From Chloroflexota bacterium (GTDB lineage: Bacteria > Chloroflexota > UBA11872 > VXOZ01), in assembly GCA_026710945.1 (NCBI GenBank), contig JAPOQA010000001.1, forward strand, positions 1-56,441: DNA of 56,441 bases, read 5' to 3'. Below are positions 28,632 to 45,497 of the stretch, in pieces. The translations under genes and the position numbers were made by a program. Numbering within the stretch: the first letter of the stretch is position 1; each line of letters opens with the position of its first letter. Below the pieces are notes generated by a model. The model worked only from the letters and a program-made list of their open reading frames with translations. It had not been told where the DNA came from and ran no database searches.

Positions 28632-29516
28632 TTAGCGGGGATCCTGCGGGCCGATGTCGCCTTCCGCCAGGATGCCGTAGAGTTCCGGTCGGCGGAAGCG
28701 GGGATGGAAGACGCCTTGCGAGCGGCGCTCGGCGAGGAGTTGCTTATCGAGGTCGGCAGTGACCATCACTTCGTCATCGGCGTCATCCGGCGAGGCCGCC
28801 ACCAGTTGTCCCAGGGGATTGTAAACCACGACCATGGGATTACTGTAGTGCGCGCTCCCGCCGGTTGGCGGCGGCCCACAGGCGTTGATCGCGACGAGAA
28901 AGACCCCGTTATCGATGGCGCGCGCGGGAAACGTGCGGCCGGCGTAGTCTTTCCAGGCGCGGTTGCGGCTGGCGTGGTCCGGCGGCTCGCCCCAGTCACC
29001 GACCGACCAGACGTAGGGTGCCAGAATGACCTCAGCCCCTTGCAACGCCACCATGCGGCTCGACTCCGGCAGCCAGTTGTCGAAGCAGATGTTCACGCCA
29101 ACTTTGGCGACACCAATGTCGATTACGGGGGGAGTGCCGCCGCCGCGCCAGTAACCCACCTCCGCCGGTGGGATGTGTATCTTGCGCGACTTGCCAATGT
29201 ACCCATCAGAACCCACGATCACGTAGGTGTTATACACAATATCGCAGTCGTTTTCGGCAATGCCGGCGGCGAGCATGACGTTGTGCTCCCGCGCCAGGTC
29301 TACGAGCGCCTGCGTGGAAGGTCCCGGCACCGGCTCGGACGCTTCCCAGATTGCCGGTGTGATCGAATAGCCGCTCAGACCAAGTTCCGGAAAGCAGATG
29401 AGATCGGGATTCTCCGCCTTGGCCCGCACGACCCACGCGGCGTGATGATCAAGGTTCTCCCGCGGCGACGCCGGGCGGCTGCACAAGGAGACTGCCGTGA
29501 CACGAAAGCTATCCAT
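28632..29516 (-). CDS. Carbon-nitrogen hydrolase (nitrilase superfamily)
   Basis: A 294-residue CN-hydrolase. The catalytic triad is visible: Glu in ICFPELGLSGYS (about residue 44), Lys in IGKSRKIHIPP, and Cys in VGVNICFDNWLPE. The family amidases and N-carbamoylases act on non-peptide C-N bonds; the substrate cannot be identified. The start at 29516 has a weak AGCTTTCG-type upstream. It abuts the repeat array downstream and has no operon partner. Confidence 0.92.
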   Translation of the reverse strand: MDSFRVTAVSLCSRPASPRENLDHHAAWVVRAKAENPDLICFPELGLSGYSITPAIWEASEPVPGPSTQALVDLAREHNVMLAAGIAENDCDIVYNTYVIVGSDGYIGKSRKIHIPPAEVGYWRGGGTPPVIDIGVAKVGVNICFDNWLPESSRMVALQGAEVILAPYVWSVGDWGEPPDHASRNRAWKDYAGRTFPARAIDNGVFLVAINACGPPPTGGSAHYSNPMVVVYNPLGQLVAASPDDADDEVMVTADLDKQLLAERRSQGVFHPRFRRPELYGILAEGDIGPQDPR

Positions 29517-29873
29517 AGGAAGCTGTATCTGGCGAGTTGTAATGCAATGGCATAAAATTTGTCTTCCTCAAAGGAGCGAGATTTGAGCACATCCGCACAT
29601 AGCGTGCCACACTACCACTCCGATTGCAGTATTAGGATCAGACCTGGTAAGGCATAGACTTACCACTTGACCTCAGCGCTTAAGAGCCACATTGATTATC
29701 CATCGGCTCACACATCCGCGCCATGGGCGAGTTTCCATATCCATGCCTCATTGCAGCGAAAAGCACAGCAGCCTCGGCGCACGTAGGGCAACATCTGACT
29801 GGGAGCAGGGACTAGTGACCAAGTTCACAGGGGCACAATACCGGAGAGCCAGAAAAAGAAGCACCTTTTGGGC
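29517..29873. other. Gene-free spacer
   Basis: No supported gene and no repeat recognised. Base composition shifts to AT-richer sequence here and stays so through the AAA/PIN pair to about 31.9 kb. An open frame at 29692-29922 plus lacks family features and overlaps the 3' end of the PIN-like gene. Confidence 0.4.
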
Positions 29874-30371
29874 TCATTCTCCCATTAGTTCTGGGCAAAC
29901 AAAGTCCACTTCGACACCGTGATCTTGGAGCGCTACACGGTGAAGCCACCAGTCCGTATCTGAAGCGTTTAGAATCTTCGGATCGGTCCCACTGGCAACA
30001 GCTACGGCAACAAACTTTCGATCATCCTGATCAAAAGAAAACAGTCTTGGGTCAGTTGGAAATTCCACAAATCCACGTTCTGCGTGAGGACTTATGTATA
30101 TTCTGCGGCAGTGTTTTGGATTCGCCTGGTTCTCGAAGAGCCACTTGAAAAATGAATCTCCAAGCCCAGGTTGACCTGATGGGTGAAGGTTTCTACGGTA
30201 TTCGTCCAGAATTAGGTTCTCGTAATCTAGCAAGAGGATGCACTCTCTGCGCAGTTTGCTTAACCTGGCAATACACTCACTGACGCACTCTTGATCTGCT
30301 TGCTCAGCTTTCCCGTTAGCAACGACGGCGACATTTGTATCCATTACAAAGTCCAACTTCCGCATACTCAA
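29874..30371 (-). CDS. PIN-like putative nuclease, partner of AAA ATPase
   Basis: A 165-residue protein with a PIN-type layout: MDTNVAVVANG near the N-terminus (Asp11), LDYENLILDEY (acidic Glu57), FDQDDRKFVAVA (Asp114/116/117) and LNASDTDWWLH (Asp138/140). These acidic clusters sit in the order of the four metal-binding acids of PIN RNases. I do not recognise a named family. Its ATG at 30371 overlaps the AAA gene stop by four bases (ATGA), so the two are coupled. Composition is AT-richer than nearby genes, suggesting transfer. It may be the effector of a two-gene defence or toxin-antitoxin-like module. Confidence 0.75.
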   Translation of the reverse strand: MSMRKLDFVMDTNVAVVANGKAEQADQECVSECIARLSKLRRECILLLDYENLILDEYRRNLHPSGQPGLGDSFFKWLFENQANPKHCRRIYISPHAERGFVEFPTDPRLFSFDQDDRKFVAVAVASGTDPKILNASDTDWWLHRVALQDHGVEVDFVCPELMGE

Positions 30372-31729
30372 TGAGCCAGTCCCTGTCTCTTGATAGCAGC
30401 ATTGCTCATTGCTGCCATCTCACCAAATTGGTCGCCAAAGAAATCCTCTGGCCAATTTGAAATATTCCCAAATTTGTCTAGTTCGAGTTCGCTCAAATTC
30501 GAGGTCCCATCGCCGTCTGTCGAGCAAAAATACAAACGCACCCTCTCTTGATCAATCTCTCCTTCAGCAATTCGACGCTGCAGTCTGCGGAGCAAGTGCT
30601 CGCTGTGACTCTCAAACAAGATTTGCGTCCTTCGTTCATTCCAAGCGTCTATGAATACATCGGCAAGCTCAGCCTGAGTCGATGGATGCAAATGAATGTC
30701 TGGCTGCTCTAGGATCACCGTTGACCCTTCGCGTACGAAAAAGCACTGCACTAACACGGGTAATATCTGCGATACGCCAAACCCAATGTCGGTGAGAAAG
30801 ACTTCTGGCGAACTAGAGGTCTTGCGAACCTTTACTTCAAAGAGCCGTTTACCCTCACCTAGCGGCTCAACTTGAAAGTCATGAACAATTCCAAGACGCT
30901 TGAGCCACTGTGCGACATACTTCTCTACGGTGAGGTGCGCTTCACCCAATCTTTCGAAATTCCCATCGCGAGTTGACAACATCGACTCAATTGCAAACTC
31001 GCCACCGGAGCCAACCCCTGAGGGCTGGGCACCCGACCACTGATAGATGCGCCTTGGATATATGCGAAAAGGGCCAACGTATCGCAAATCCTGGAGTTGC
31101 CTTGTTAGCTCATACCTAAGGCCAAATATGAAGCTACGGTCAGCGAACAGGTCTTCAGCCTGATATGGAAACTCACAAAACTTCGACTGGCGTGAATAAC
31201 GATCAGGAGTCCAAGTAGACTCTGCTAGATCAAGATTCTTGCCCCTCTCGTACACTCTATATGCAAACTCACCATCTTTTTTTTTCATGCCGAACGATCG
31301 ACTGTCGGCTAACTGATATTCCATTTCCTCCAACAACAGCGATCTCTTGGAGTCGATTGTATTCTCTCTTACTTCAACACTAAACCCAATCTCTTCTCCC
31401 TCACTTACAAACCCACCTTTGTAAACATCGGGTACCCTAATTCTTTCCTTAGATTTCCACTTGAGAGATATCTTTAGGGCTCTAGTCGTGTCGTGTTCAT
31501 GTATGACACTATCAAAGTCGCCGAGGTCCACAAGTGTATTCTCATCGCCAAAGTGAAATACAATACCTTGGTCAGGAGCATCGACTGTCTGTTTCATAAG
31601 TAGCAAACTTTGGATGAGACTAGACTTACCAGAACTGTTGGAGCCAAAAAAACCGGTTATCGGCTTAAGCGTTACATCTCCAGTGCTCTCCCAGGGTTTA
31701 AAGTTCTCCAGCCGCATGTTTGTCAACAT
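30368..31729 (-). CDS. AAA/ABC-type ATPase with DUF3696 C-terminus (OLD/RecF-like)
   Basis: A 453-residue ATPase. The N-terminus has LENFKPW..GDVTLKPITGFFG and the Walker A SNSSGKSSLIQSLLLMKQT (29-47); the C-terminal half has Walker B in VILEQPDIHLHPSTQAELAD, followed by the H-loop in ILFESHSEHLLRRLQRRI. This is the pattern of DUF3696-containing AAA_15/AAA_21 proteins, close to ABC-type sensor ATPases found in phage defence operons. The last part (EGEIDQERVRLYFC to SAMSNAAIKRQG) is the DUF3696-like tail. It overlaps the PIN-like gene by four bases. No nuclease (Toprim) domain is evident in the ATPase itself, so the PIN protein would supply it. Confidence 0.85.
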   Translation of the reverse strand: MLTNMRLENFKPWESTGDVTLKPITGFFGSNSSGKSSLIQSLLLMKQTVDAPDQGIVFHFGDENTLVDLGDFDSVIHEHDTTRALKISLKWKSKERIRVPDVYKGGFVSEGEEIGFSVEVRENTIDSKRSLLLEEMEYQLADSRSFGMKKKDGEFAYRVYERGKNLDLAESTWTPDRYSRQSKFCEFPYQAEDLFADRSFIFGLRYELTRQLQDLRYVGPFRIYPRRIYQWSGAQPSGVGSGGEFAIESMLSTRDGNFERLGEAHLTVEKYVAQWLKRLGIVHDFQVEPLGEGKRLFEVKVRKTSSSPEVFLTDIGFGVSQILPVLVQCFFVREGSTVILEQPDIHLHPSTQAELADVFIDAWNERRTQILFESHSEHLLRRLQRRIAEGEIDQERVRLYFCSTDGDGTSNLSELELDKFGNISNWPEDFFGDQFGEMAAMSNAAIKRQGLAH

Positions 31730-39044: not shown

Positions 39045-39247
39045 CGGAGACCAGCCAAGTCTCCGCAAACATCAAGCGTATTGGATTGTGCTGACCAAGG
39101 TTGTCCTGCTGCTTGAGTCTTGCCTGTATTTGCGCTCGCATCAGCTAACTTGCTTACTAAGCCCGTGGACTCGGCAAGAAATTCTCAAGGTATCCTGCGA
39201 CAGGGAGGGTGTATACTTGCAATGGACGGGAGCACTGAGTTCACATT

Positions 39248-39541
39248 GTGCGTATCATCAACCTGGAATACCTCTTTGAGTCCCTAAAGCGCCACGCTAG
39301 TGCCAGGCAGCAACTAGAAGCTTGGTATGACCGAGCGCGAAACGAAGCTTGGGGCACACCCGCCAAACTGAAGAAACTCCATGGCAGAGCAAGTTTAGTT
39401 GGCAAGAATTGCGCCGCTTTCAGAATCATGGGCAATCGCTATCGAGTGGTAGTAGAAATCGACTACAATCGCAAGTTAGTTGACATCCGCTTCATCGGTT
39501 CGCACTCGGACTACGACCGCATAGACGTCCAGGAGGTCTAA
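39248..39541 (+). CDS. higB: HigB-type toxin (pair 1)
   Basis: A 97-residue type II toxin of the HigB (RelE-fold mRNA interferase) family. Typical blocks are KRHASARQQLEAWYDRARNE, WGTPAKLKKLHGRASLVGKN, CAAFRIMGNRYRVVVEIDYN and VDIRFIGSHSDYDRIDV, the last being the family's C-terminal (FIGTHxEYDRID) motif. It starts at GTG 39248. The antitoxin gene follows after two bases. Toxin first, antitoxin second is the HigBA order. Confidence 0.92.
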   Translation: MRIINLEYLFESLKRHASARQQLEAWYDRARNEAWGTPAKLKKLHGRASLVGKNCAAFRIMGNRYRVVVEIDYNRKLVDIRFIGSHSDYDRIDVQEV

Positions 39542-39543
39542 GG

Positions 39544-39807
39544 ATGGCAAACCCCGATCCCATACGCACGGAACAGGAATACCAAGTTGCGCTTGCTAGG
39601 ATTCGTGAGTTATTCCACGCAGAAGAAGACACGCCTGAGGGCGACGAGCTTGAGATGCTCGTTGACCTAGTCCAAGTCTATGCAGCGGAGCACTACCCGA
39701 TTGATCCACCAAGCCCTAGTGTGGCTATGGAATACCATATGGACCAAACCGGCAAGGCTCCGACTGACCTGGCCTCCCTTACCAAAGAGCACGACAAGGT
39801 TTCCTGA
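39544..39807 (+). CDS. higA: HigA-like antitoxin lacking intact HTH domain (pair 1)
   Basis: An 87-residue protein that matches the N-terminal part of HigA antitoxins (EYQVALARIRELFHAEEDTP, GDELEMLVDLVQVYAAEHYP, IDPPSPSVAMEYHMDQTGKA) but stops where the XRE helix-turn-helix should begin. Just after the stop, the +1 frame reads RFPEVTSHKPLPRTETRRAH, resembling the 'KVSEVLS.KRPL....RRLH' HTH of full-length HigA. One base of insertion near 39800 would explain it. The remnant may still bind the toxin but probably cannot autoregulate. Confidence 0.85.
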   Translation: MANPDPIRTEQEYQVALARIRELFHAEEDTPEGDELEMLVDLVQVYAAEHYPIDPPSPSVAMEYHMDQTGKAPTDLASLTKEHDKVS

Positions 39808-39952
39808 GGTCACGTCGCACAAGCCGCTACCACGTACCGAAACGAGACGAGCGCATGGGGCAGAGGCAAGGTGACCAAAGAGGTATTTGAAGAATATGTC
39901 GCTATATGCGCGGAGTGTATAATTGACCAAAAGGGAGTCTTGACCACGCGTT

Positions 39953-40246
39953 GTGCGTATTGTATCTAAAAGGACGCTCAGGGAGTTTTGGGAGCGCCAC
40001 TCAAGTGCAGCAGACCCTTTGCGCGATTGGCACAAAAAGGTCAAGAAGCTAGATTGGAAGACGCCAGCACAGGTGAAGGAGCACTTTCCAGACGCAAGCA
40101 TCCTTCCCAACTATCGCATAGTGTTTAGGATCAAACACAACGACTATCGGCTTGTGGTGAAAGTGTTCTACCCCGGTCGCGTGGTATACGTACGGTTTAT
40201 CGGCACCCATGCCGCGTATGACCGTATCAACGCGGAGGAAATCTAA
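39953..40246 (+). CDS. higB: HigB-type toxin (pair 2)
   Basis: A 97-residue paralogue of the first toxin: SKRTLREFWERHSSAADPLR, WKTPAQVKEHFPDASILPNY, VFRIKHNDYRLVVKVFYPGR, VVYVRFIGTHAAYDRINAEE. It starts at GTG 39953 and is followed after two bases by a second antitoxin. A TATAAT box at 39919-39924 lies upstream. Confidence 0.92.
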   Translation: MRIVSKRTLREFWERHSSAADPLRDWHKKVKKLDWKTPAQVKEHFPDASILPNYRIVFRIKHNDYRLVVKVFYPGRVVYVRFIGTHAAYDRINAEEI

Positions 40247-40248
40247 CC

Positions 40249-40512
40249 ATGAATAAGACCGAAACAATTAGCAGCGAGGCTGAATACGACGCAGCTTTGG
40301 CCCGGATTTCCGAACTCATGGACGCCCTGTCAGGGCCACAGGGGCAGGAAACGGATCCGAATCACCCCCATCGAGTCGAACTCGATTCACTTGTCAGCCA
40401 AGTCGAACGCTACGAGGACGAGCACTACCCCATCGATCCTCCCAATGCAATTGAGGCCATTGCGATCGCCATCGACCAAACCGGCAAGACCCCGAGTGAG
40501 CCGCTCCCCTAA
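40249..40512 (+). CDS. higA: HigA-like antitoxin lacking HTH domain (pair 2)
   Basis: An 87-residue partner with the same N-terminal HigA features (EYDAALARISELMDALSG, VELDSLVSQVERYEDEHYPI, DPPNAIEAIAIAIDQTGKTP). It stops after EPLP, again without the HTH. Twenty-two bases past the stop lies the target site of the IS5-family insertion, at the place equivalent to the degenerate HTH remnant of pair 1. Two pairs in tandem probably arose by local duplication. Confidence 0.85.
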   Translation: MNKTETISSEAEYDAALARISELMDALSGPQGQETDPNHPHRVELDSLVSQVERYEDEHYPIDPPNAIEAIAIAIDQTGKTPSEPLP

Positions 40513-40579
40513 CCGAAAAGCACGACACGGTCTCTTAGAGGGTGTTTCCAAAGTATTAGAGTTGTATTAGACTTGATGT

Positions 40580-40960
40580 ATGAAACGCAAACCATACCCC
40601 AGCGACCTTACCGACCAAGAGTGGGACATTCTGCTTCCCTTACTCCCGCCCGCCAAGCCTGGAGGACGGCCACGCACAGTCGATATACGAGAGATAGTCA
40701 ATGGCATCGTGTATGTTCTGCGTACCGGATGCCCGTGGCGTATGCTTCCACACGATCTCCCACCCTGGCAGACAGTGTACAAATACTTTCGCAGATGGAC
40801 GCTGGACGGAACTTGGGAAGGAGTCCACGAGGCATTGCGTCCCAACGTCCGACAATCAGAGGGCAGAAGCCCGTCCCCCAGCGCAGCGATCATAGCTAGC
40901 CAGTCTGTAAAGACGACGGAAAAAGGGGGCCTCGCGGCTATGATGCTGGTAAGAAGGTGA
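40580..40960 (+). CDS. IS5-family transposase, upstream frame (orfA)
   Basis: 126 codons. The N-terminal DUF4096-type region is [60 protein letters not shown]. Near its end a homopolymer run (GGAAAAAGGGGGCC at about 40919-40932) would allow a -1 shift into the second frame: read in -1, the sequence continues [20 protein letters not shown], the expected catalytic region. Confidence 0.93.
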
Positions 40961-41364
40961 TGGGTCGCAAGCGTCACATCGCCGTGGACACGATAGGGCT
41001 GTTGCTGGCCGTCGTGGTCCACCCAGCTGACATTCAGGACCGAGATGGTGCAAAGTTGGTCATCAATAAGCTGGTAGGAAGGTTTCCGTACCTGCGATTG
41101 ATCTGGGCGGACGCTGGTTACGCTGGTCAATTGGTTGATTGGGTGATGTCCTTATCGGGCTGGGTCTTGGAGATTGTGAGGCGTCCGAGAGACAGGCATC
41201 ATTTTGAGGTGTTGCCGCGAAGATGGGTCGTTGAGCGAACATTGGCATGGCTCGGACGCTCTCGTCGGTTGAGCAAGGATTACGAAGCCCTGACCGAGAC
41301 AACCGAGGCTTGGGTACACATAGCTATGATTCATCTTATGATCCGTCGCCTAGCTCCTTCATGA
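40957..41364 (+). CDS. IS5-family transposase, downstream frame (orfB, DDE part)
   Basis: 135 codons in the -1 frame relative to orfA. Catalytic Asp in [12 protein letters not shown], Asp in [12 protein letters not shown] and Glu in [20 protein letters not shown] are all present, so the fused product should be active. It is probably made only as an orfAB fusion, although a GTG start at 40957 exists. Confidence 0.93.
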
Positions 41365-41542
41365 CACCCTTTGGAAACACCCTCTTAGACCTTGCCTGGC
41401 AAGTAGAAAGGGCAATGAGCCCTTAGTCTATGGCCTCAATCCTGAAACATATGCCCAGCAACCCGCACACTCCGTGCCAGTACGCCCTGTATATACGATA
41501 CCGTTGGGGCTAACCACCATAGTCGGACGCTTGCAGTTGAGT

Positions 41543-43297
41543 TCATTTTTTCTGTTTAGGCGGGGGGGGGGCAGGGAGTTCACGAAGTCGGTCTATCAAC
41601 ACTCCCAAAAATACTGCGATCTGAGCGGTAGAACACTTCTTGGTCACTCGGCGAATCGCTCGACCGACATCCTCGTCTGCGTACTTATGCTTCTCAAGAT
41701 AGTCAATCATGGCTTCGATATCTGGTTGACGCTCTGACTGTTGCGAACGATCCTTCGGTGGATACTGGGAAGGATGTGCCACACGCGAAGGGCCGTCGTC
41801 TGCGCGTTGCACGCTCTCAGTAATCTGAATAAGGTCCTTTGCAATCGGCTGAGATGACTTCTCAGGTTGTTTGACCGGGAGGCTGCCGAACTTACCCCCT
41901 TTGCTCGCGAGATGCTTGCGGTGTTTGATGAGCAAGGTTTGACCAATCTCAAGCTTGACCCACTGCCACTCAAAGCCATCCACCGATGACGGTATGGGTT
42001 CTTTGACCGCTTTAGCATTCCCCAAGCCGACAACGTGCAGGTCGCCATTATCCAAGTGGACCAAAGCATCTGCGCGTGTTTTCGGCGCGACCCAGTGGAG
42101 TAGGTCTGGATACTGATAATCCTTTGGTGTTTTGCCATTCGCGATTGCAGATAGCCGTTCGGCCTCTGACCTAAAGAGTGCAGAATCCAGAACTTCAACA
42201 GGTGGATCCGTTTCAGCATTCACGCCAAGAATAGCGCCAGCCATGGTTGCGATCGTATCGGTGTCAGTACCAATGGCGTTGGCGGCAATTCGCAATGCTG
42301 CTTCGGGTTGTGGCTCGCACCAGGTTAAGCCTACTGCTGCCACTGCTGTTAGCATTCCGCTTCCGCGCCGCGCCGGGTCGGCAAGGTCCAAGCGATCTAC
42401 GAGAGCGTCGTATCGCTCAGAGCCAGTCTGCTTTTCCGTATCAGCAGTAACTTGAATCGTGTTCCGGCAACTGTCGATCGCCCGTGTCCAGGCATCGGCA
42501 AATGCGCCGGACTTGTGCTCAAATGATCCTCGCCAGTACTGCCCAATCTCCATGTCGCCCTGAATCATCGCGGGTATCTTGGCAGCAACTTCTAAAGCAT
42601 CCATAAGGTCGTCAGATGTCGGGTAGTCTCCAGCGTTCAGCGCATGGGCAAGTGCTAATGCGTGAAGAACCGCACCCATCATCCCGTCCGGGTGAGAGTG
42701 AGTACAAATGGCATTGCGTACAACGTCTGGCAGGAAAGTTGTCGGATCATTGAGAGCGTGCGCAGCCCAAACGTGCGGCTGAATGCGCATCGCGGCGCCG
42801 TTGCCCCCGGAGTCAGTCCACCCTTTGTAAGTGTTGGCGAACCACTGTACCCGTGGCCGGGCAAGGTTCGAAGCTGCGGCACTCGTGGACTTGCCTCCTC
42901 CAAGCGCATAGCTTAACCAAACCGGGAGTTCAACTTTGGAAAAGGCCTCTACGTCAAAGCCGTCTGCGCGGATAGATCTGCCGGTAGCTAGCCGCAACTG
43001 CGAATCATCCGAATAACACCCTTTCGGAAGGTTAGCAGTGACACCTACGCGGCCCCCTATCCGCCGCTTCCACTCGATGGGTTGGCAAAGAGGCTGACCC
43101 GCCGTGCGCCTCTCAAGTCCTCTCTTGTCCGTCAACTCGCTAATCCAGCCAAGAGCGTCACCGTATGCTGCCCAGAGCGCAGATCGTTGAACTCTTTCAG
43201 AATGGCTGATGGCACTGGACTCTTCGTCTTGGGTGTGGCTTGACCCCCCCCTCCCACTCAGCTTTACACCGTCATCAAACAACCGTGGTTCAGTCAT
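41543..43297 (-). CDS. ADP-ribosylglycohydrolase (ARH/DraG-like), partner of DarT-like enzyme
   Basis: A 584-residue protein with an N-terminal ADP-ribosylglycohydrolase domain: GDALG (46-50), YSDDSQLRLA with the two metal-binding aspartates (95-104), GGNGAAMR (164-171), ICTHSHPDG (197-205) and the second metal motif GTDTDTIATMAGAILG (343-358). The last 200 residues are a charged extension ending in a proline run (PAPPPPKQKK). Start ATG 43297 overlaps the DarT-like stop by four bases (ATGA) and is preceded by GGAGGTG, so the two proteins are translationally coupled. ARH enzymes remove ADP-ribose; here it is likely to reverse or restrain the DarT-like enzyme. A longer reading to 43321 lies inside the DarT gene. 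Confidence 0.87.
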   Translation of the reverse strand: MTEPRLFDDGVKLSGRGGSSHTQDEESSAISHSERVQRSALWAAYGDALGWISELTDKRGLERRTAGQPLCQPIEWKRRIGGRVGVTANLPKGCYSDDSQLRLATGRSIRADGFDVEAFSKVELPVWLSYALGGGKSTSAAASNLARPRVQWFANTYKGWTDSGGNGAAMRIQPHVWAAHALNDPTTFLPDVVRNAICTHSHPDGMMGAVLHALALAHALNAGDYPTSDDLMDALEVAAKIPAMIQGDMEIGQYWRGSFEHKSGAFADAWTRAIDSCRNTIQVTADTEKQTGSERYDALVDRLDLADPARRGSGMLTAVAAVGLTWCEPQPEAALRIAANAIGTDTDTIATMAGAILGVNAETDPPVEVLDSALFRSEAERLSAIANGKTPKDYQYPDLLHWVAPKTRADALVHLDNGDLHVVGLGNAKAVKEPIPSSVDGFEWQWVKLEIGQTLLIKHRKHLASKGGKFGSLPVKQPEKSSQPIAKDLIQITESVQRADDGPSRVAHPSQYPPKDRSQQSERQPDIEAMIDYLEKHKYADEDVGRAIRRVTKKCSTAQIAVFLGVLIDRLRELPAPPPPKQKK

Positions 43298-43989
43298 TCG
43301 AACACCTCCGGTGCAAGACATACTGGAACGTCTAGACCTAGGACTCCCAAAGCCCCTTCAATATCCTCCAGAGACCGTTCTAGCTGTACATCAATTTGCT
43401 GTAGATGATCGCAAGACAGTTCACCCGGGTATAGGACTTCAGCTTGTCGGTCAGTGGGCCAAGCTGCCAACATGCCGTCGGTGCGACTGTGACGCTCATC
43501 ATAGCGACCGAGTACCGTGTCCGTGAACATTAAGGAGAATCCAGCTAAGCCCTCCGCACGTTTACAGGCAGGATATATGTTGTTGGTCGTAGTAAACACA
43601 ACGCCAGGGTGGGTAAGAACACAAGGGCGAAACGATAGAATGACCCAAGGGTTGTGCTCCACAGGGTGCCATTTCGTTGAATGACTAAACATCCAGTTAT
43701 TGATGCGCTCTACTGAGAGATTAACATAGTCAAGCCATTCCGGGTCTTTTCGATGAGCTGCATTCGGTTGATAGACGTGCTCAAGGTATTTGTCGCTGGA
43801 CACCCGTTTTCGGCTCTTGACTGCCTCTGCGGCTATGATCCCAACTGCGCCTGTCGTTGTAGTGAAGTGAACCACCTGGCTGATCCTACGACGTTCCGCA
43901 GCTACTGCGATAGCCGGGCAACCCGGAAGACGATCGATCTCTTCCACAGTTCTAGGCCGAGCCGGAATGCAGTCTCGTTCAGATACCAC
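43294..43989 (-). CDS. DarT-like (DUF4433) DNA ADP-ribosyltransferase
   Basis: A 231-residue protein of the DarT type. A typical DarT start (ISQVVHFTTTTGAVGIIAAE, NAD-binding His41/Thr43) is followed by RVSSDKYLEHVYQPNAAH, WLDYVNLSVERINNWMF, WVILSFRPCVLTHPGVVFTT, and near the end RQAEVLYPGELSCDHLQQID, whose Glu184 fits the catalytic glutamate in the QAEVLV motif. DarT enzymes use NAD+ to modify bases in single-stranded DNA, stop replication and act in phage defence. It starts at GTG 43989 after AAGGT inside the helicase 3' end. It is followed by an ARH-type hydrolase, not by a macrodomain DarG. Confidence 0.85.
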   Translation of the reverse strand: MVSERDCIPARPRTVEEIDRLPGCPAIAVAAERRRISQVVHFTTTTGAVGIIAAEAVKSRKRVSSDKYLEHVYQPNAAHRKDPEWLDYVNLSVERINNWMFSHSTKWHPVEHNPWVILSFRPCVLTHPGVVFTTTNNIYPACKRAEGLAGFSLMFTDTVLGRYDERHSRTDGMLAAWPTDRQAEVLYPGELSCDHLQQIDVQLERSLEDIEGALGVLGLDVPVCLAPEVFE

Positions 43990-43990
43990 T

Positions 43991-45430
43991 CTAGACCTTT
44001 ACGAGATCGTAAGTCTCAGAATCAATGTAGTCGAACACTGAAGAGCGCTCACCCGGCTTATAGCCCAACATGACAGTCTTTCTCGCACGCCCCACTCCCA
44101 TTGCTACCAATCTACGTAGTGACTCGAGTGTGCCGTCCCCATCCTCATTGCCGTGTGGTGTAACCTCGTTGCTCAGTCCAGGCAATAGAACATGATCGAA
44201 TTCAAGGCCTTTCGCCGAATGGATCATAGACAACGCAACCAGTTCCGGCCCCGTCGGCCACTCTGGGTTTCGAGTTAGCTCGCAATATCGAATATTCCGC
44301 TTTCCCAATGTATTTCTTAGGCAGTCGAACCAGCCCCCGCCCCAAGGCTGGAGAATTGCGATGGTTTCGCTAGTGTGGAGAAAAGGTTGCACCTGATCAA
44401 GCATGTAGTCAATCTGCGCGCTATACTTGCCCACCACTACTCGGGGGCGTATGTCAGACATCTGGCAGGACTCCTCGTCTGGAACAACACCGTCAGCGTC
44501 TGGTGGTAAGTCTGAAACAAGTGAAGAAGCAAGCCGTGCGATCTCCGCCGTGTTACGATGATTGCGAGCAAGCCTAAAGGCCATCCCTTGCCTCCTCATA
44601 TCAATGCCTAGTTCTCCCCACTGGAAGCCTTGGGCATAGATTCGTTGCGCAGTATCAATTATGAATGTGGTCACGTGATCTTCATTCAAGTGCGCCAAGA
44701 TGGTGCGGATCTGGTTTGCGGAAAGATCCTGCGTTTCATCGACAACCACAATGTCATAACCTTGACAAGGCACTCTCGCGGCCTTTAGCGCAACGTCATT
44801 CCAATCGACCGTGCCTTTCTCTGCTTTCATTATTTCATACGGAGCAATAACTTGGTCCAAAATCTTGTGACGAAGTTCTCGAGGGACCGCTGGCGCTCTT
44901 CCACGTCCAGACCTCGTTGCATTTAGATACCTGTCTCGGTGTCCAAGCGGGAACCTGCCCTGGACGTACTTGACCTCATCGTAGAAGTATTCCTGATTTT
45001 CAAAAGGAACACCTGCCTCTCTCAGTAAGGAACATATCCACTGACGTCCGTCGTCCTTTAGGATGTTTGGTTCCTCAAGAAGACTCCTCGCCCAATACCC
45101 AAAAGTCTCAACATCGAGGACGATGTCATCCAAAATGTCGACCTGCTCTGCTGCGAGCTCACTAATGTACCCTCTCAATGTTCGATTGAATGTTAGTACC
45201 AGAACTCGCACAGGATCTATAGAACCTAAGCGCGCACGTCGATTCCGACGCGAATTGCATAGCTGTCGGAGGCGAAGCAACGCTGCGGTAGTTTTGCCGC
45301 TACCTGCAGCACCTCGAATCAGTCGGAAGCCCGGTTGAGCATCAGTCAATATTCTGAGTTGTTCGGGGGTAGGAGTTATTCTCTGTAATGTACGCACTTG
45401 CGCCCCGACTATACGGTATAGCATACTCAT
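43991..45430 (-). CDS. UvrD/Rep-type superfamily 1 helicase-like protein
   Basis: A 479-residue SF1 helicase. Motif I is RGAAGSGKTTAALLRL (39-54), motif II VVVDETQDLSANQI (228-241), motif IV region RLARNHRNTAEIA, motif V MIHSAKGLEFDHVLLPG and motif VI VGRARKTVMLGY. It is shorter than UvrD/Rep and has no nuclease domain, so it resembles the helicases that accompany defence modules (for instance GajB). The ATG at 45430 is taken; later starts (GTG 45397) are possible. One base separates its stop from the DarT-like start, forming a three-gene unit. It begins 67 bases downstream of apbC, so cotranscription with that gene is not excluded. Confidence 0.9.
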   Translation of the reverse strand: MSMLYRIVGAQVRTLQRITPTPEQLRILTDAQPGFRLIRGAAGSGKTTAALLRLRQLCNSRRNRRARLGSIDPVRVLVLTFNRTLRGYISELAAEQVDILDDIVLDVETFGYWARSLLEEPNILKDDGRQWICSLLREAGVPFENQEYFYDEVKYVQGRFPLGHRDRYLNATRSGRGRAPAVPRELRHKILDQVIAPYEIMKAEKGTVDWNDVALKAARVPCQGYDIVVVDETQDLSANQIRTILAHLNEDHVTTFIIDTAQRIYAQGFQWGELGIDMRRQGMAFRLARNHRNTAEIARLASSLVSDLPPDADGVVPDEESCQMSDIRPRVVVGKYSAQIDYMLDQVQPFLHTSETIAILQPWGGGWFDCLRNTLGKRNIRYCELTRNPEWPTGPELVALSMIHSAKGLEFDHVLLPGLSNEVTPHGNEDGDGTLESLRRLVAMGVGRARKTVMLGYKPGERSSVFDYIDSETYDLVKV

Positions 45431-45497
45431 GGCTGGCCTGTGTCAGCCTGCTCTGAGTTGCCATCACACTGAAGAAAAGTAGCCAGTCTGTATACCG

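Follow-up and report, generated by a model that had tools for sequence, protein, structure and literature searches.

The closest described relatives of the locus reported here are the DarTG toxin-antitoxin systems, in which a DarT writer is paired with an eraser of its ADP-ribose mark, a NADAR in DarTG1 and the macrodomain protein DarG in DarTG2. Both types protect against phage, according to a passage of PMC12255303 that cites LeRoux 2022, and DarTG2 is often located inside restriction-modification operons (PMC5179494, PMC12255303). DarTs are also found in operons with differing hydrolases (Schuller et al. 2023, citing older work). In the literature that we searched, only macrodomains and NADARs are given as erasers of DarT marks. 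The observation of DarT beside different hydrolases probably goes back to de Souza and Aravind in 2012. Here we describe an operon in 56,441 nucleotides of DNA from a Chloroflexota bacterium (contig JAPOQA010000001.1; this whole stretch is called the window below), in which a DarT is followed by an ADP-ribosylglycohydrolase (ARH).

The operon encodes, on the minus strand and in this order, a UvrD-like superfamily 1 (SF1) helicase, a DarT and an ARH. It is a real, widespread and coherent operon, whose function we infer. It is of the DarTG kind but lies outside DarTG1 and DarTG2, because the antitoxins that define those types are absent. In our view it is probably a third type of DarTG-like toxin-antitoxin system, and most likely an antiviral module.

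A compact operon conserved across genomes

A sequence-only reading of the window had described three closely packed minus-strand genes, and both their positions and their junctions are confirmed in the sequence. The helicase stop codon TAG is followed by one base and then by the DarT start codon GTG, with AAAGGT immediately upstream. The DarT stop and the ARH start share ATGA, which is preceded by GGAGGTG. All three proteins score above the curated Pfam cut-offs: the helicase matches UvrD_C (43 bits) and UvrD-helicase (31.5 bits), the DarT PF14487 (70.4 bits, cut-off 22.5) and the ARH PF03747 (114.3 bits, cut-off 26.2). Judged from predicted starts, the helicase and DarT genes of the relatives overlap by exactly four bases (-4) in 26 of 42 loci, and the DarT-ARH junction falls within -4 to +23 bases in 36 of 43.

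The helicase-DarT-ARH order is found in 49 distinct loci including the window, with protein identities that are mostly about 35-60% and fall to 23-30% in the most divergent relatives. Since the arrangement recurs in 48 other loci, the association of the genes is not due to chance, and the proposal that the trio would be kept together in unrelated genomes has held. The record titles of these loci name eight NCBI phyla; several records are metagenome bins, and single phyla could therefore be binning errors.

A plasmid search with the DarT recovered Salmonella, Streptomyces and two Cereibacter records at 37-39% identity, all of them with helicase, DarT and ARH (the helicase of one Cereibacter record is present though unannotated). 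A scan of the genome collection with the single DarT protein gave no matches; a scan of genome contigs with an alignment of the plasmid ARHs later succeeded, adding about 34 loci with identical gene order and strand. The count also takes in plasmids of Rhodococcus, Streptomyces NBC_01220 and Shinella, and four whole-genome matches (L134, L135, L192 and L193). To the subfamily profile the triad ARHs reach about 160 bits or more, whereas the ARHs with ordinary scores in that scan (22-76 bits) have neither neighbour. In E. coli the triad, there an operon of 3.76 kilobases, is present in 21 of 5,426 complete genomes; it is always chromosomal, and its sequence is identical or nearly identical to the one on the Salmonella plasmid. 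Viral contigs gave four matches, three with the full trio and one ending at the contig edge; among GenBank phage records, neither DarT nor ARH of the operon type was found.

The pairwise distance matrices of DarT, ARH and helicase are correlated (Spearman 0.71-0.77, reached by none of 2000 permutations), as expected if the genes travel together. With a helicase profile, 396 genomes from the phylum of L012 and 398 from that of L032 yielded six matches of at least 229 bits. Four are triads, two of them in the very genomes that had led to these phyla; one is a helicase-DarT-NADAR locus and one a helicase without DarT, next to GmrSD and PglZ genes. In 301 genomes of the window's phylum a DarT profile gave three strong matches, all triads and the window among them, and weaker matches that include one DarT1-NADAR pair and two helicase-less DarT-ARH pairs.

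The predicted writer and eraser

By profile and by predicted structure, the window DarT is nearest to DarT1, the guanine-specific type. The best match in the Protein Data Bank (PDB) for its AlphaFold model (mean predicted local distance difference test, pLDDT, 94) is DarT1 of E. coli C7 (8BAQ; Z 24.0, 191 residues, 1.9 Å), and DarT2 structures follow at Z 15.5-16.6. A profile of the family gives the same ranking against solved structures, with E 8e-25 for 8BAQ and 0.11 for DarT2. In the tree, one row labelled DarT2 was in the wrong frame and its placement was disregarded.

In DarT1, H17 and F18 contact NAD, R52, D54, M71, N104 and E152 are required for activity, and S63 stands where DarT2 has a tyrosine (PMC11543638). 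The window residues R80, S92, N136 (which holds the base) and E184 (the glutamate characteristic of ADP-ribosyltransferases, ARTs) match R52, S63, N104 and E152, and are kept in 44 of 44 DarTs. H41, the counterpart of H17, is kept in 43 of the 44, and F42 (F18) and Q182 are also conserved. D82 is present in 33, and the M71 position holds Phe, Tyr, Met or Leu. W115 and R169 are additional invariant residues. The NAD-binding residues and catalytic glutamate on which the sequence-only reading depended are thus both present in the alignment, and DarT1-like chemistry on a DNA base is predicted; guanine is the most likely target, with the base itself uncertain.

The ARH model (pLDDT 86) matches MJ1187, ARH1, ARH3, DraG and Tri1 at Z 31-36. 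E54 and the di-metal residues S96-D97-D98 and D345-T346-D347 are invariant in 41 of 41 relatives. The suggested structural check of the two active sites therefore turned out well: the folds match DarT1 and the ARH family, and the catalytic residues are intact. The catalytic part of the ARH spans about residues 30-390, followed by a small beta domain (407-462), a disordered stretch (481-523) and a helical part (527-573). The beta domain is conserved, e.g. at W446, G452 and Q453, and has no match in Pfam. A UvrD-type tudor identity was considered for it and found no support.

NCBIfam and PADLOC models recognise the DarT and the ARH poorly. The window DarT scores 13 bits to the strict NCBIfam DarT model (cut-off 150) and the ARH 25 bits to the DraG model TIGR02662 (cut-off 337). 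In PADLOC the DarT has a weak match (E 1e-5) and the ARH none. We therefore regard the DarT as a divergent one whose partner is not listed.

The helicase and the variant loci

The Walker A residues G40-G43-G45-K46, the DExQD residues D231-E232-Q234-D235 and the motif IV and VI arginines R292 and R448 of the helicase are invariant in 40 of 40 relatives. Its true start is probably the GTG at 45397, giving 468 amino acids, rather than 45430, because residue 12 occupies the column of the family's start methionine and complete relatives are mostly 463-476 amino acids long. The nearest solved relatives are HelD, UvrD and PcrA, and matches to PADLOC helicase models exist, the top one being C3a187 (71 bits). 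Helicase matches on plasmids of E. coli, Geobacillus, Thermus, Deinococcus and cyanobacteria are other helicases with no DarT alongside. At L195 (G1007) a helicase of a related type, also without DarT, lies beside NYN, GmrSD and PglZ genes, in what looks like another helicase-containing defence cluster.

What do departures from the standard arrangement tell us? At one locus (L194, 525-3334) the helicase and an overlapping DarT are followed by a convergent NADAR of the DarT1 type (PF22397, 299 bits) in the place of the ARH. In that phylum the helicase accompanies only one of the eight DarT1-NADAR loci surveyed. DarT-ARH pairs without the helicase occur at L009, L137, L140 and L203, the last on plasmid pC052_C of Nostoc sp. 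C052, with a 531-amino-acid DarT carrying an N-terminal extension. In a Xenorhabdus locus (L024) the helicase frame is broken and DarT and ARH are intact. Taken together, the eraser swap and the helicase-less pairs point to writer and eraser as the core, to which the helicase is an addition that is usually conserved. A subfamily ARH stands alone, without DarT or helicase, in a single case (L039, 6692-8575, an Acidimicrobiaceae bin). An eraser was adjacent to every DarT of strong clade score that was seen, which is weak evidence given that most loci were collected via the ARH.

Genomic context and mobility

The operon sits between livF and mrp together with an insertion sequence (IS) element and two toxin-antitoxin (TA) pairs (Table 1), neighbours that had been noticed earlier and that we also find. 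The IS5-like transposase gene is split (40580-41364), and the two adjoining TA pairs are HigB-like (39248-40512). The first pair has a PADLOC match to PD-Lambda-2 A, its 87-amino-acid partner matches the start of the 402-amino-acid PD-Lambda-2 B model, and no third PD-Lambda-2 component was seen at these pairs. Relatives of the TA pairs occupy the corresponding livF-mrp site in genus-mates.

Table 1. Features of the operon and its site in the window
Feature	Position	Strand	Basis
UvrD-like SF1 helicase	43991..45430	-	Pfam UvrD_C/UvrD-helicase; invariant helicase positions in 40 relatives
DarT, DarT1-type, putative DNA-base ADP-ribosyltransferase (writer, predicted toxin)	43294..43989	-	PF14487; AlphaFold model; 8BAQ fold match; conserved residues
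ARH/DraG-type ADP-ribosylglycohydrolase with C-terminal extension (predicted eraser/antitoxin)	41543..43297	-	PF03747; fold; invariant metal site
Junction of helicase stop and DarT GTG, AAAGGT ribosome-binding-like site	43985..44000	-	Sequence
DarT stop overlapping ARH start (ATGA), GGAGGTG site	43290..43312	-	Sequence
Variable livF-mrp site holding the operon, IS5-like element and two TA pairs	39100..45497	.	Comparison of four genus-mates

In four genus-mates (L150-L153) livF and mrp share a contig, and the operon is missing. In two genus-mates a short gap separates livF and mrp; in G109/G149 about 5 kilobases do, holding an N6-methylase-HNH gene, a small gene and a Dsr1-like gene of 967 amino acids. 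GC content is 53% in the operon, against 63-64% in livF and mrp and 58.6% in the window as a whole. The lowest GC content in the window, about 47%, lies elsewhere, at about 29000-31500.

Signs of mobility surround the relatives: conjugative and mobilizable plasmids, integrases, transposases, Tn7-like neighbours and, in E. coli, an island that is identical to DNA of the Salmonella plasmid. Some neighbours are known defence genes. For example, the DarT-ARH pair of L203 lies between an AAA protein and the pglZ-brxL genes of BREX, that of L140 comes after a DrmMI/type IIG-like methylase, and RADAR rdrB is found about 13 kilobases from the triad on the E. coli island. These cases, and the methylase-HNH and Dsr1-like genes at the livF-mrp site of genus-mates, favour a role in defence.

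What the operon may do

We propose the following course of events. DarT would attach ADP-ribose from NAD+ to a base of DNA; homology makes the amino group of guanine in single strands the most likely target. Taking the mark off, and so shielding the host chromosome, would fall to the ARH, whose reading frame comes next and overlaps that of DarT. The helicase would be needed for targeting, making or recognising single-stranded DNA, e.g. at the replication forks of phages or at intermediates of recombination. During infection it might tip the balance from erasing to marking, so that replication of the phage would be halted, and probably the cell too. The full version, in which the ARH of this third type frees a DNA base of ADP-ribose (probably guanine, at N2) and a dedicated helicase steers DarT to viral single-stranded DNA, we hold only tentatively, at somewhat less than an even chance.

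Several points weigh against this account. K74 and Y75, with which DarT1 reads guanine O6 and N7, are lost, the equivalent columns being variable or Ser-Ala (the alignment is uncertain there), and the target base may therefore differ from guanine. The literature searched holds no report of any ARH erasing ADP-ribose from a DNA base, and the bacterial SCO5809 and the human ARHs tested left guanine-linked ADP-ribose in place (PMC11833690); the operon ARH would therefore need a new specificity. When the two closest open reading frames on either side were scanned with PADLOC (124 beside triads and 124 beside ordinary ARHs), no enrichment of defence genes was visible; the comparison is a rough one, since it lists families rather than proteins. 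Finally, the genome of the window has a complete canonical DarTG2 (L148, 5215-6949, G000:C23), with a DarT of 216 bits and an overlapping macrodomain partner, which leaves the need for a second DarT unexplained.

Could the helicase act on the protective side instead? It might clear polymerases at forks stalled by DarT or admit repair, so that helicase and ARH would jointly be the antitoxin. Its kinship with HelD, UvrD and PcrA fits this, as does the fact that E. coli deals with ADP-ribose lesions in its DNA through nucleotide excision repair and RecF recombination (PMC7003065). That said, the four helicase-less pairs and the broken Xenorhabdus helicase indicate that the helicase is not essential for protection, and we consider this explanation unlikely.

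Slightly less probable still is that the mark erased by the ARH is on protein or RNA, DarT having lost its activity on DNA. Known ARHs work on arginine, on serine and on phosphate ends, and the inactivity of tested ARHs on guanine marks, the loss of K74 and Y75 and the new invariant residues W115 and R169 would all suit such a shift. Against it, the catalytic and base-holding positions of DarT1 (R52, N104, E152) are invariant, and NADAR, an eraser of guanine ADP-ribose, alternates with the ARH behind the same helicase and DarT.

A host regulatory or stress switch, as proposed for DarTG of M. tuberculosis, in place of antiviral defence appears improbable. Mycobacterial DarTG controls replication and gene expression (PMC12170906), and the lack of a visible excess of defence genes around the triads would agree with this. 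A patchy and mobile distribution speaks against it: the operon is absent from all genus-mates examined, occurs on plasmids and an IS-flanked island, and turned up in the helicase survey in 3 of the 396 genomes from one phylum and in at most 3 of the 398 from the other. Equally improbable is a selfish addiction module that chiefly maintains plasmids or islands in a population, which would account for the conjugative and mobilizable plasmids and nearby integrases and transposases, but not for many chromosomal copies, for an antitoxin that is a large enzyme where most addiction modules have small proteins, or for a dedicated helicase, of which such a module has no need.

An antiviral DarTG-like module thus remains the reading that we prefer, and it has some consequences. 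A conserved DarT-ARH pairing would add a third superfamily of erasers for DarT marks. The predicted ARH activity would be new for its family, and is the source of the interest and the chief risk alike. The idea is directly testable, as intact E. coli copies exist. The alternation of NADAR and ARH behind the same helicase and DarT is a natural experiment in which the antitoxin enzyme is swapped and the chemistry of the toxin kept. Furthermore, a dedicated helicase would offer a DarT system an obvious route to single-stranded DNA.

Comparison with known systems

No prior description of the helicase-DarT-ARH composition was found in the open-access literature searched or in PADLOC, in line with its earlier proposal as a new system, although a passing mention of DarT-ARH may exist. 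Several described systems share parts of it. Gabija GajB, Nhi and AbiO also have a UvrD-like SF1 helicase; in the operon its partners are DarT and ARH, with no nuclease. DraT, whose target is dinitrogenase reductase, forms with DraG a reversible pair of ART and ARH, but the operon ARH lies far below the cut-off of the DraG model. The ART toxins of Tre1-Tri1 and of the Listeria pairs serve interbacterial competition and modify proteins. These pairs (PDB 6DRE, 8ZA7) resemble the operon in joining an ART toxin to an immunity protein of the ARH fold (Z about 31), and differ from it in that the operon has a DarT for its writer and a helicase besides.

DarTG2 shares the DarT fold and the logic of writer and eraser. 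The operon has no macrodomain DarG, its DarT holds the base with an asparagine rather than a histidine, and the fold match is only at Z about 16. The sequence-only reading had suggested that DarG is replaced by a hydrolase with another fold. The ARH does hold the position of the eraser; the operon DarT is of the DarT1 type, and the partner replaced is therefore NADAR, not DarG, with one locus having a NADAR there. The operon has in common with DarTG1 the structural type of its DarT (8BAQ, and the R52, S63, N104 and E152 positions) and an eraser gene right after DarT, and differs in having an ARH in place of NADAR PF22397, a helicase as first gene and no K74 or Y75. At L194 the two arrangements meet, with the NADAR of DarTG1 placed behind a helicase and DarT of the operon type.

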